A stretch of 52,454 nt of DNA from Deltaproteobacteria bacterium. Lineage in GTDB: Bacteria; Myxococcota; Myxococcia; Myxococcales; 40CM-4-68-19. This document shows positions 20,442-25,026 of this stretch, in pieces. The stretch is taken from positions 1-52,454 of the forward strand of contig VBKI01000062.1 of the NCBI GenBank assembly GCA_005879535.1, written 5' to 3'. The notes beneath the pieces are model-generated. The model searched no databases and was not told the DNA's origin. It was given only the letters and a program-made list of their open reading frames with translations. Each line of letters starts with the position of its first letter. Within the stretch, counting starts at the first letter, position 1. The translations under genes and the position numbers were made by a program.

Positions 20442-22058
20442 TTACTTTACCCGGACCGGAACGTACGTCGTCGACTGGCCGTGCTTGATGCGCAGGAGCG
20501 CCGTGTCGCCCTTTTTCACGCTCTTGACGGCGGTCCGATAATCCGACGCGGAGCCGACGGGCCGCCGATTCACCTCGACGACGATGTCGCCGGGCTCGAG
20601 ACCGGCGTCCGCCGCCGGCGAGTCCTGCGCGACGTCCACTACCACCGCGCCGCGGGTCGAGGCGTCGACCTGCGACCTGCGCGCGAGCTGCGGCGTCACG
20701 TCCTGCACCGAGAGCCCGAGCAGATCACCCTGTTCCTTCTCGCTGCCGCTCCGGCTCGGAGTCCGTCCGCTCGGCTCGCGCTCGTCGGGGCGCTCCGCCA
20801 GCTTGACGTCGACGGCGCGCGATCTGCCCTCGCGGACGACGTCCAGCTTGACCGTGTGCCCCGGCGGGATCACACCGACGTCGCGGGTGAGCTGGCTGTT
20901 GTCGTTCACCGGCTTGCCATTGAGCGCGACGACCACGTCGCCGGGCTTGATCCCGGCATGTTCCGCCGGGCTGTCCTTCACCACGTCGGCGATCAGGGCG
21001 CCCTTCGTGGACTTGAGCCCGAGGTTGTCCACCATGTCGGCGGTGATGGCCTGCGGCTGCACGCCGAGGAAGCCGCGCACGACCTTTCCCGTCTGCTTCA
21101 GCTGGGGAAGGATCTGCTTCACCACGTTCACCGGAATGGCGAAGCCGATGGTGTTCGCGCCGCTGATGATGGCGGCGTTCACGCCCACCACCTCGCCCTT
21201 CATGTTGAAGAGCGGGCCCCCGGAGTTGCCGGGATTGATGGACGCATCGGTCTGCAGGTAATCGGAGTACGGACCGCCGAACTGCGTGCGCTCCTTCGCG
21301 CTGATGATTCCGGAGGTCACGGTGGCTTGCAGCCCGAAGGGCTCGCCGATGGCAAGGACGTAGTCGCCGACCTCGATGCTGTCGGAATCGCCGAGCGTCG
21401 CGTACTTCAACTTGTCGACGTCCTTGCCCTCGATCTTGAGGATGGCGATGTCGCTCTTGGGGTCATTGCCGATCACCTTCGCGGCGAACTCGCGCGCGCC
21501 ACCGGGCGCGGTCTCGTCGGTGATCACCTTGATCTCGTCCATCGGCCGGTAACGCCCGGGCCGCGATTCGTCCTGGATCTCGACCACGTGGTTGTTGGTG
21601 AGGACCAGCCCGTCGCCGATCAGGAAGCCGGAGCCCAGCCCGCGGCGCTCCTGCTCGTTCGGCATCGGCTGCCCGAAGTAGCGGAAGAAACGCTCCATCG
21701 GATCCTGGGAATCGTCCTCGTCGCCACCATTGTCCTCGTCCTGCTGCGGCGGCCGGACCCGCGGATGGCCCTGGGGCATCCGCTGCGAAACCCGGCCCTG
21801 GCGGGGCTTGATGCGCGAGTTGATGTTCACCACCACCGGTCGGAGCTGCTTCACCAGCGGCGCCAGGGAGGGCATCGGACCCACCTGCTTCACGGTTTCG
21901 GCGGTGGTGGGCGGCGAGGCCGCTGCCGCCTGCGCGTCGGCGGCGAGGATGGAGCTGTCGGTTGTCCGGCGCTGGCAAGCCGACACCAGCGGCAGCGCGG
22001 CGACGGCGGCGAAAGCGCCGGCGATCAGTGCGGAAAAAAGGGTGAAACGGCGATGCAT
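20442..22058 (-). CDS. degP: HtrA/DegP-type serine protease with two PDZ domains
   Basis: 538 residues. A signal with a possible lipobox (LVSAC, Cys28) is followed by an acidic, disordered stretch (about 85-120). The trypsin-like domain has the triad His157 (LTNNHVVE), Asp203 (KSDIAILK) and Ser279 (PGNSGGPLF). Two PDZ domains follow (about 325-415 and about 445-538). The family degrades and refolds damaged proteins in the periplasm. GGAGG precedes the ATG. It lies downstream of ftsH and the region 1.1-like gene on the same strand but after a 177-base gap with its own promoter-like signals. Confidence 0.92.
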   Translation of the reverse strand: MHRRFTLFSALIAGAFAAVAALPLVSACQRRTTDSSILAADAQAAAASPPTTAETVKQVGPMPSLAPLVKQLRPVVVNINSRIKPRQGRVSQRMPQGHPRVRPPQQDEDNGGDEDDSQDPMERFFRYFGQPMPNEQERRGLGSGFLIGDGLVLTNNHVVEIQDESRPGRYRPMDEIKVITDETAPGGAREFAAKVIGNDPKSDIAILKIEGKDVDKLKYATLGDSDSIEVGDYVLAIGEPFGLQATVTSGIISAKERTQFGGPYSDYLQTDASINPGNSGGPLFNMKGEVVGVNAAIISGANTIGFAIPVNVVKQILPQLKQTGKVVRGFLGVQPQAITADMVDNLGLKSTKGALIADVVKDSPAEHAGIKPGDVVVALNGKPVNDNSQLTRDVGVIPPGHTVKLDVVREGRSRAVDVKLAERPDEREPSGRTPSRSGSEKEQGDLLGLSVQDVTPQLARRSQVDASTRGAVVVDVAQDSPAADAGLEPGDIVVEVNRRPVGSASDYRTAVKSVKKGDTALLRIKHGQSTTYVPVRVK

Positions 22059-22113: not shown

Positions 22114-22171
22114 GACGCGCCGTGCGCGAAAATGTTTCGCGTCGAGACGCGAACATGTTTCGCGACGAAAC
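22114..22171 (-). promoter_or_regulatory. ECF-sigma-like promoter and palindromes upstream of htrA
   Basis: On the minus strand, CGAAAC (22134-22139) is followed after a 16-base spacer by CGTC (22114-22117), the layout of extracytoplasmic-function sigma promoters (GAAAC-N16-CGT). Overlapping this are a perfect 8-bp inverted repeat TTCGCGTC-GA-GACGCGAA (22136-22153) and a second, GTTTCG-CGA-CGAAAC (22157-22171). The 10-mer ATGTTTCGCG occurs twice, 23 bases apart (22132 and 22155), so the -35-like motif is duplicated. A predicted start near 22107 leaves a leader of about 50 bases. Confidence 0.55.
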
Positions 22172-22235
22172 GGCGATGCGAGCGAACGTAACGCTCTTGG
22201 CCCCGCCGTCAAGGCGGTTTGATTGCAGACCCGTT

Positions 22236-22496
22236 TCAGTGCGATTCGGGCACGCCCTGGAGCTCGTCCCGGGAAGAGCGCAGGTCCTCCAGCTCCACCC
22301 TCTTGCCGCGCCGGTCCAGGACCTCCACCCGGGCGGCGTGCAGCGAATAGTAGAGCAGCCAGCGCTCGGCATCGGTGAGGGCGCCTGGCGGGAGCGCTTC
22401 GTCGATCTCCTCCACGGTGAGCAACCCGCGGCGGATGCCCCGGGTGAAAAGTGCCTTCCGCGCCTTGTGGGATCGGCCGATCTTCAGCGAAGACAT
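22236..22496 (-). CDS. Stand-alone sigma-70 region 1.1-like protein
   Basis: 86 residues. The segment KALFTRGIRRGLLTVEEIDE followed by ALPPGALTDAERWLLYYSLH and VEVLDRRGKR matches the layout of region 1.1 of primary sigma factors (x-x-G-K-x-x-G-x-L-T-x-E-E-I-x-x-A-L-P-P-x ... I-E-V-V-D). Nothing resembling regions 1.2-4 is attached. In the primary sigma factor, region 1.1 keeps free sigma from binding DNA, and a similar fold is used by the delta subunit of Firmicutes RNA polymerase. Translation starts at 22496 after GGAGG. It begins 14 bases after ftsH on the same strand, so the two are likely co-transcribed. Confidence 0.7.
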   Translation of the reverse strand: MSSLKIGRSHKARKALFTRGIRRGLLTVEEIDEALPPGALTDAERWLLYYSLHAARVEVLDRRGKRVELEDLRSSRDELQGVPESH

Positions 22497-22510: not shown

Positions 22511-24454
22511 TTACGCGCTCTCTCTGTGCTCGCGCTCCGCCTCTGCCCCAGGCCCTTGCTTCTCCACTGGCAACGCGCCGGACTCGGCCAGGATCCGGCG
22601 CAGTTCCTCGCCCTCGATCACCTCCGTCTGGAGCAGGCGTGCGGCCACCCTGCTCAGCGCGTCGCGATGCCGGACGATCAGCTCCCGCGCCCGCTGCATC
22701 GCCTCTTCGATGAGCCGGGAGACCTCCTCGTCGATGCGGCGCTGCGTGCGCTCGCTGTACGCCTTGTCCGTCAACCCGGCCATGCCGTCGTTGGTCCGGA
22801 GGAAGGGCGAGCGGCCCCTCTCGGCGTAACTGATCGGTCCCAGCGCCTCCGACATCCCATACTCCGTCACCATCAGCCGCGCGATCTCCGTCGCCTGCTT
22901 GAAGTCGTTGGAGGCTCCCGTGGAGATGGAACCGACCACGATCTCCTCCGCTGCGCGGCCGCCCATCAGGCCCGCCATCTTGTCGAGGAGCTCTTCCCTC
23001 GACATCAGATACCGATCCTCGAGCGGAAGCTGCAGGGTGTACCCGAGAGCGGCCAGTCCGCGCGGAATGATCGAGATCTTGTGCACCGGCTCGGAGTGCG
23101 CGCAGAGGCTGGACACGAGAGCGTGCCCGGACTCGTGGTAGGCGACGATCTCCTTCTCCTTCTCGTTCATCCGGCGCGTCTTCTTTTCCAGCCCCGCCAC
23201 CACGCGCTCGATGGCCTCCATGAAGTCGGCCATCACCACCTTGTCGCGGTCCTTGCGCGCTGCCAGCAGCGCGGCCTCGTTGACCACGTTCGCCAGATCG
23301 GCCCCCGCGAATCCCGGCGTGCGCGCGGCGACCAGCTTGAGATCGACGTCGGCGCCCAGCTTCACCTCGCGGGAGTGGATGCGGAGGATCTCCTCGCGCC
23401 CCTTGCGGTCCGGCCGGTCGACGAGCACCTGCCGATCGAAGCGGCCGGGACGCATCAGCGCCGGATCGAGGATCTCCGGGCGGTTGGTGGCAGCGAGCAC
23501 GATCAGCGCGGTGCGCGAGTCGAAGCCGTCCATCTCCGCCAGCATCTGGTTCAGGGTCTGCTCGCGCTCGTCGTGTCCGCCGAAGACGCCGGCGTTGCGG
23601 CTCTTGCCGATGGCATCCAGCTCGTCGATGAAGATGATGGCCGGCGCCTTGGCGGCGGCCTGCTGGAAGAGATCGCGCACGCGCGCGGCGCCCACGCCGA
23701 CGAACATCTCCACGAACTCTGACCCGGAGAGGCTGAAAAAGGGCACGCCGGCCTCGCCGGCCACGGCGCGCGCCAGGAGCGTCTTGCCGGTTCCGGGCGG
23801 GCCCACCAGCAGCACACCCTTGGGAATGCGGCCGCCGAGCCGGCGGAACTTCGCGGGCATCTTGAGGAACTCGACGATCTCCTTCAACTCGTCAGCGGCT
23901 TCGTCGACGCCGGCGACGTCCTTGAAGGTGACGCCGGTGTTCGACTCCATGTAGACGCGCGCCTTGGTCTTGCCGAACGACATCACCCCGGGAGGTCCGC
24001 CGCCCATGCCGCCGGACATCCGCCGCGTGAGCCAGGAGACGAAGAGCAGGCCGATGCCGATGGGGACGATCAGCATCCAGATCATCTCGCTCATCCCGCT
24101 CTCGGAAACCGCGTCGTACTCGATGCGCTTGTCCTGCAGCGTCTTCACCAGCGTCGTGTCACCGGCGACGCGCACGGCGAACCAGGGCAGCTCGCCCTTC
24201 GTCTCGCCCGCCTTCGGATAGCATTTCACCCATTCGTTGCTGAGGACGACCTTCTGGCAGCCATCGCTCTGGACGCGCTCGAGCAGGCGGCTGTACGGCA
24301 CGCGCTGGAACCCGGCGTCCTGGAAGAGCGAGCGCAGGAGCAGGAAACCGACCAGAAGCAGGAGAACGTAGACCAGCGGCGAACCGAACCGCGGACCCGA
24401 CCCGGGCGGCTTGTCGAGCTTTTTCCCGCGCGGATTCGGCTTCCCGATCGCCAT
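22511..24454 (-). CDS. ftsH: ATP-dependent membrane metalloprotease FtsH
   Basis: 647 residues. Two membrane segments (about 26-42 and 125-141) enclose the periplasmic domain. The AAA+ part has Walker A GPPGTGKT (218-225), Walker [12 protein letters not shown] (about 273-283) and the second region of homology with the arginine fingers ([19 protein letters not shown], about 324-342). The zinc site is HESGH (440-444). The enzyme pulls membrane and short-lived cytoplasmic proteins into its protease chamber. It is followed closely by the region 1.1-like gene. Confidence 0.95.
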
Positions 24455-24531: not shown

Positions 24532-24927
24532 TCAGTGAGTGAGATCGAGCAGCTGAGCGACCGTCTTCTCGTCTGCTGCAGGAAACTCGTACTGATCCAT
24601 CTCCTGCGGTGAGACCCAGCGGTGATCGTGCACCTTCTTGTGGTTGATGTCGCCGCGCACGAGCTTGCACCGGTATACGCGGAAGTCGATGTCGTAGTGC
24701 GGATAGCTGTGTTGCACGTGGATCACGCGGTCGCCCACATCGACGTCGATCTCCATCTCCTCCTTCAGCTCACGCGCGAGCGCGGCCTCGTCGGATTCGC
24801 CCTCCTCGACGCGCCCGCCAGGGAATTCCCATAAGAGCGGCAGGGTTGCCGTCGGGCGGCGCTGGGTAATCAGGTACTTGCCGTCCCTCTCGATCATGGC
24901 GGCGACGACGCGGATCCGATGTGGCAT
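24532..24927 (-). CDS. NUDIX hydrolase (MutT-like)
   Basis: 131 residues. The Nudix box GRVEEGESDEAALARELKEE plus MEI (about 37-59) is complete except that the usual Gly before the last hydrophobic residue is Glu. The surrounding fold is typical: VVAAMIERDGKYLITQRRP at the start and DHRWVSPQEMDQYEF near the end. Family members clear damaged or excess nucleotides such as 8-oxo-dGTP or 5-methyl-dCTP. A longer open frame extends to 24987, but the chosen ATG at 24927 gives the normal length. Promoter-like TTGCCG-N17-TATCGT ends 8 bases before this ATG, suggesting a leaderless message. Confidence 0.85.
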   Translation of the reverse strand: MPHRIRVVAAMIERDGKYLITQRRPTATLPLLWEFPGGRVEEGESDEAALARELKEEMEIDVDVGDRVIHVQHSYPHYDIDFRVYRCKLVRGDINHKKVHDHRWVSPQEMDQYEFPAADEKTVAQLLDLTH

Positions 24928-24935
24928 GACAACCG

Positions 24936-24964
24936 ACGATAGACCTCCAAGGAGCAGGCGGCAA
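24936..24964 (-). promoter_or_regulatory. Putative promoter of the NUDIX gene
   Basis: On the minus strand, -35 TTGCCG (24959-24964), 17-base spacer, -10 TATCGT (24936-24941). The -10 lies 8 bases before the ATG at 24927, so transcription would begin at about the start codon. The only GGAGG lies 16 bases upstream, too far for normal use. Confidence 0.4.
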
Positions 24965-25026
24965 GGCGTGCGCAGGGTTACTTGCACACCGGAAGCGCTG
25001 GCTTAACCTTGGGAACGGAGGTTCCC

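Follow-up and report, generated by a model that had tools for sequence, protein, structure and literature searches.

What does region 1.1 of a sigma factor do when it is encoded as a protein of its own? In primary sigma factors this region is the autoinhibitory part, and as a rule it is found only in cis. The question was raised by the window, i.e., the whole stretch of 52,454 nucleotides analysed here (contig VBKI01000062.1), in which a preliminary description had placed an 86-residue protein with the layout of region 1.1, and with no other sigma region, between ftsH and htrA. The protein is referred to below as s11.

The s11 gene and its kinship with sigma region 1.1

The s11 ORF was located at 22236–22496 and was read on the minus strand from an ATG at 22496, encoding 86 aa (stop codon included in the coordinates). 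Its strand had not been stated before; its placement was as described, with the start 14 bases past the end of ftsH and a spacing of 177 bases to htrA, all three genes lying on the same strand. The third-position G+C of s11 was 0.87, and its neighbours were alike.

Pfam analysis showed that s11 matched Sigma70_r1_1 (PF03979) with an E-value of 8.3e-5 and 22.9 bits, passing the curated cut-off of 22.5 bits by a thin margin. No other sigma region was found in the 86 aa by the Pfam search; s11 held region 1.1 only and lacked regions 2–4 of a primary sigma factor. Sigma70_r1_1 was also matched by 31/31 s11 homologues scanned (best 8.8e-7), in agreement with the proposed layout, and the divergent s11 of genome G011 scored 17.1, under the cut-off. 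Comparison of the s11 profile with the profile of myxobacterial RpoD region 1.1 (hhalign) gave an alignment of 51 ungapped columns (E 1.9e-8) with a probability of 95.4%, while 200 column-shuffled profiles reached at most 4.9%. The profile check suggested earlier thus came out in favor of the family. Only two PDB sequences matched the s11 profile at E≤1; both were sigma region 1.1, and both matches were weak (E 0.01 and 0.38). Sub-threshold matches to DUF2835 occurred in 8 of the 31 members (best 0.0023), covering only residues 43–70 of the window s11, and were treated as chance.

AlphaFold models were obtained for the window s11 (pLDDT 79.7) and for its Myxococcus xanthus homologue (pLDDT 84.3), and they showed the three-helix fold of sigma1.1; in the window s11 the helices were at residues 3–23, 28–34, and 42–54, with a variable tail after them. 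The best-ranked fold match of both models in Foldseek was SigA (probabilities 0.99 and 1.00). Bacillus subtilis sigma1.1 (5mww) superposed on the two models at 1.8 and 1.7 Å (probabilities 0.84 and 0.97), so that structure prediction also agreed with the preliminary description. The Foldseek E-values were weak (>0.01), as expected at 60 residues, with probabilities of 0.84–1.00.

Among 31 s11 sequences, 16 positions were invariant, half of them in helix 3, and dN/dS was 0.05–0.27 among the pairs that differed by one or more non-synonymous changes. The Pfam match, its recurrence in all 31 homologues, the profile comparison against shuffled controls, and dN/dS exclude chance, and a spurious ORF was rejected on the basis of conservation, dN/dS, and the shuffled profiles. 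These results showed that s11 is a real gene under purifying selection and a homologue of sigma region 1.1, whose sequence places it in a known domain family. The strongest PF03979 match of the genome fell in an open frame of 767 aa, taken to be RpoD and situated on a different contig; therefore, s11 is an extra copy of region 1.1.

The half of the domain bearing the signature KG-xLT-xxEI-xxALP was common to s11 and sigma region 1.1. Helix 3 (AERWLLYYSLxA) was not shared; it was nearly invariant and unlike that of sigma, its invariant residues being E44, R45, W46, L47, L48, S51, L52, and A54. The conservation of W46 and R45 beyond the needs of a small core suggests a binding surface. The net charge of the s11 core was +0.8 on average (range −1 to +4) vs. 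−10.3 for RpoD region 1.1 in these bacteria; strong net negative charge, a functional trait outside the definition of the PF03979 profile, was thus absent from s11. The tail was mildly acidic and 0–67 residues long, with a mean charge of −4.5 and −11 in the most acidic case. Despite widely varying tail length and sequence, 38 of 54 distinct tails ended in histidine; the C-terminal end of the window s11 is encoded at 22239–22241 on the minus strand.

Gene neighborhood and distribution

Upstream of s11 on the minus strand, ftsH (22511–24454) encoded a 647-aa protein that Pfam identified as an AAA and M41 protease and that belonged to a distinct FtsH subfamily co-occurring with s11; upstream of it lay a NUDIX (MutT-like) gene identified by Pfam (24532–24987, minus strand), a neighbor in many relatives. 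Downstream, a htrA/degP-like gene (20442–22058, minus strand) encoded a trypsin-like serine protease with PDZ domains, as supported by Pfam and synteny. ftsH was directly upstream of s11 and on the same strand in all 44 flanked loci. htrA was downstream in 43/44, and in the remaining one the contig ended first. grpE, confirmed by Pfam, lay between s11 and htrA in 34/44. The conserved group order was ftsH - s11 - (grpE) - htrA on one strand; the clade of the window itself had no grpE at this locus, and the single grpE of the genome was on another contig.

When 84,980 species genomes were scanned by a method that detects close relatives only, 44 s11 loci came up, almost all of them with the label Myxococcales or Deltaproteobacteria. 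One of these loci came from a record titled Comamonas sp. KCTC 72670, with a myxococcal ftsH-s11-grpE-htrA and an s11 97% like that of M. xanthus; this assembly is probably mislabelled or contaminated. Profile search found s11 as a single-copy gene in 103 of the 145 Myxococcales genomes. Outside this order the phylum gave no s11, its only two matches being marginal (E 1e-4) and consistent with RpoD. A mobile or phage origin was rejected: no relatives were found in viral contigs, and the search of phages and plasmids at E 0.1 gave none with the first queries and one weak phage match (E 0.06) with a second query. A defence gene was likewise rejected, with no PADLOC match.

The genome held three ftsH-type genes. 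The subfamily linked to s11 was clearly separated, in that the best-matching gene of a genome had either E≤1e-235 or E≥1e-196. Across 145 genomes, counted irrespective of shared ancestry, both the subfamily and s11 were present in 101, neither in 41, ftsH only in 1, and s11 only in 2; with ancestry left out of account and neighbors open to joint loss by a single deletion, the Fisher value for these counts is not a probability. Adjacency of s11 and ftsH in related genomes, proposed earlier as a check, was complete among flanked loci, and co-occurrence across the order was near-perfect. One of the two s11-only genomes (G003) was a contig-edge artefact in which an ftsH fragment was visible. The other, G011, had NUDIX-s11-htrA with ftsH missing at the locus and no subfamily member found, and helix 3 was kept. 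In G149, ftsH-grpE-htrA was present and s11 was missing. Genomes G018 and G012 kept both genes no longer adjacent, the ftsH of G018 lying elsewhere in the genome; inspection by eye of the s11 locus of G018 showed no ftsH, grpE, or htrA within 1.5 kb and an adjoining cation-antiporter-like ORF. s11 and the subfamily ftsH therefore appear linked in function, but given the exceptions G149 and G011, neither seems to need the other strictly.

Inspection of intergenic sequences by eye showed a promoter-like pair, TTGACG / GTTACGTT, between s11 and htrA (22185–22212, minus strand). Most near relatives retain it, which makes a separate, putative promoter for htrA probable. Two near-perfect palindromes, CGCGAAAATGTTTCGCG and CGCGAACATGTTTCGCG, preceded htrA at 22125–22141 and 22148–22164; no other site in the genome came within one mismatch of them. 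Apart from a lone copy in a near relative they occurred in this genome only, and they were rejected as a conserved operator for that reason. In one Myxococcaceae locus (L066) and other loci of this family, an AT-rich element, GGCGAAATTATCTT, was located in a G+C-rich spacer about 25–45 bases before the s11 start; it is perhaps a candidate promoter for s11-grpE-htrA.

Explanations for the function of s11

The preferred explanation is that s11 is an ancient paralogue of region 1.1 of the primary sigma factor. In the ancestor of the Myxococcales this paralogue would have become a small protein in its own right and would have settled in the proteostasis gene group ftsH - s11 - grpE - htrA. s11 would bind RNA polymerase in trans, as an accessory protein: helix 3 would dock on a surface of the core enzyme or holoenzyme, like the N-terminal domain of delta, and would leave the DNA channel unfilled. 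By favoring or disfavoring the sigmaA holoenzyme, s11 would tune transcription at times of demand for membrane or envelope proteolysis, and FtsH may set the level of s11. The analysis established the homology and the fold, the conservation of s11 as a single-copy gene under purifying selection, the gene order, and the co-occurrence with one FtsH subfamily. In favor of the explanation are the homology and fold, the near-neutral core with its mildly acidic tail, the 16 invariant residues with half of them in helix 3, and the survival of s11 in G011 without ftsH at the locus. On the other side, the closest statistical tie of s11 was with the FtsH subfamily and not with any RNA polymerase gene. 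Docking on RNA polymerase is further weakened because region 1.1 is known for an acidic action in the channel and s11 has lost this acidity, and because the s11 tail is far shorter than that of delta (net charge −47). A role of s11 as a trans-acting RNA polymerase accessory protein is proposed tentatively and falls somewhat short of being probable. Action on RNA polymerase or sigma, as first suggested, is plausible by homology, and the proposed link between proteolysis and transcription under stress is hypothetical; s11 probably ties protein-damage stress either to transcription or to FtsH.

The main rival, which is possible but on the unlikely side, is that s11 is a partner of the FtsH subfamily, be it an adaptor, an inhibitor, or a regulated substrate. 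In this case the sigma1.1 fold would be reused as a binding module, and FtsH or its clients would be engaged by helix 3 or by the tail and its C-terminal histidine. The constant adjacency (44/44 flanked loci), the near-perfect co-occurrence (101/41/1/2), the retention of both genes in G018 and G012 though separated, and the histidine ending of 38/54 otherwise variable tails all argue for such a partner. However, one deletion can remove adjacent genes together, so co-occurrence overstates the link; G149 keeps ftsH-grpE-htrA without s11; and FtsH is not the sole reason for s11 to exist, because the G011 gene persists, helix 3 included, without ftsH at the locus or any subfamily member found. An FtsH adaptor with a sigma1.1 fold is not known.

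It is improbable that s11 is a small DNA-binding regulator of its own operon, with a winged-helix-like fold and a basic first helix. The basic N-terminal stretch (KIGRSHKARK...RGIRRG) and the neutral core, unlike the acidic sigma1.1, are consistent with DNA binding, as is the conserved AT-rich element before the Myxococcaceae copies, but the invariant surface is an aromatic helix rather than a basic recognition helix, and the best folds were sigma1.1 and not DNA-binding proteins.

Region 1.1 is best known for its action in the DNA channel through its acidity. Homology and fold would fit s11 being a true sigma1.1 in trans, mimicking DNA in the downstream channel of RNA polymerase; however, this channel is positively charged (PMC7064336), and the core charge of s11 is about +1 vs. 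about −10 in RpoD region 1.1. Because the acidity is lost, DNA mimicry is very unlikely for s11. Finally, the short length and the thin Pfam margin might point to a spurious ORF or to a fragment left to decay after duplication of rpoD. This reading is refuted by dN/dS, by the gene order kept across the order Myxococcales, and by the 16 invariant residues, and has next to no probability.

Comparison with known systems

FtsH partner proteins of the HflKC type and other modulators share with s11 the genetic linkage to ftsH; no kinship in sequence or fold was seen between them, and s11 had no obvious membrane segment by inspection. A transmissible locus for heat, pressure, and chlorine tolerance also carries an ftsH and a degP-like gene. 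This locus is a horizontally moved island of Proteobacteria, whereas the s11 group is kept vertically in Myxococcales and includes s11 and grpE.

The likeness to the delta subunit (RpoE) of Firmicutes, drawn in the preliminary description, held for the layout: both are small proteins encoded separately, in which an acidic tail follows a sigma1.1-like fold. It did not extend to the tail itself, which has 0–67 residues and a mean charge of −4.5 in s11 vs. 83 residues and −47 in delta, so that the long polyanionic C-terminal region of delta is absent. No HARE-HTH profile match was found in the 31 s11 members at E≤1, and no delta structure was among the best 50 fold matches listed; s11 was therefore rejected as a delta subunit or HARE-HTH member, being delta neither by sequence nor by closest fold. 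That s11 is nevertheless a counterpart of delta in myxobacteria, which arose on its own from sigma1.1, was recruited to a chaperone–protease operon, and couples membrane proteolysis by FtsH/HtrA to the choice or recycling of holoenzyme, is a doubtful though conceivable extension of the preferred explanation.

A literature search, with most subscription papers outside its reach, brought up no publication on the s11 locus or on a region 1.1 protein that occurs free. A natural region 1.1 in trans, kept across an order that includes the model M. xanthus, provides a test of the fold apart from sigma and apart from acidity. If s11 acts on RNA polymerase, a general transcription factor would be added to the stress biology of myxobacteria; if it is a partner of FtsH, an important class of membrane proteases would have a regulator of unexpected origin.

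With region 1.1 of primary (group 1) sigma factors (PF03979), s11 shares the signature, the 51-column ungapped alignment, and the fold (1.7–1.8 Å). It differs in being encoded alone, in being neutral and not strongly acidic, and in having its own helix 3 and an extra variable tail. s11 is therefore not simply sigma1.1 set free; what is new is a separate region 1.1 protein with an altered surface and a proteostasis setting.
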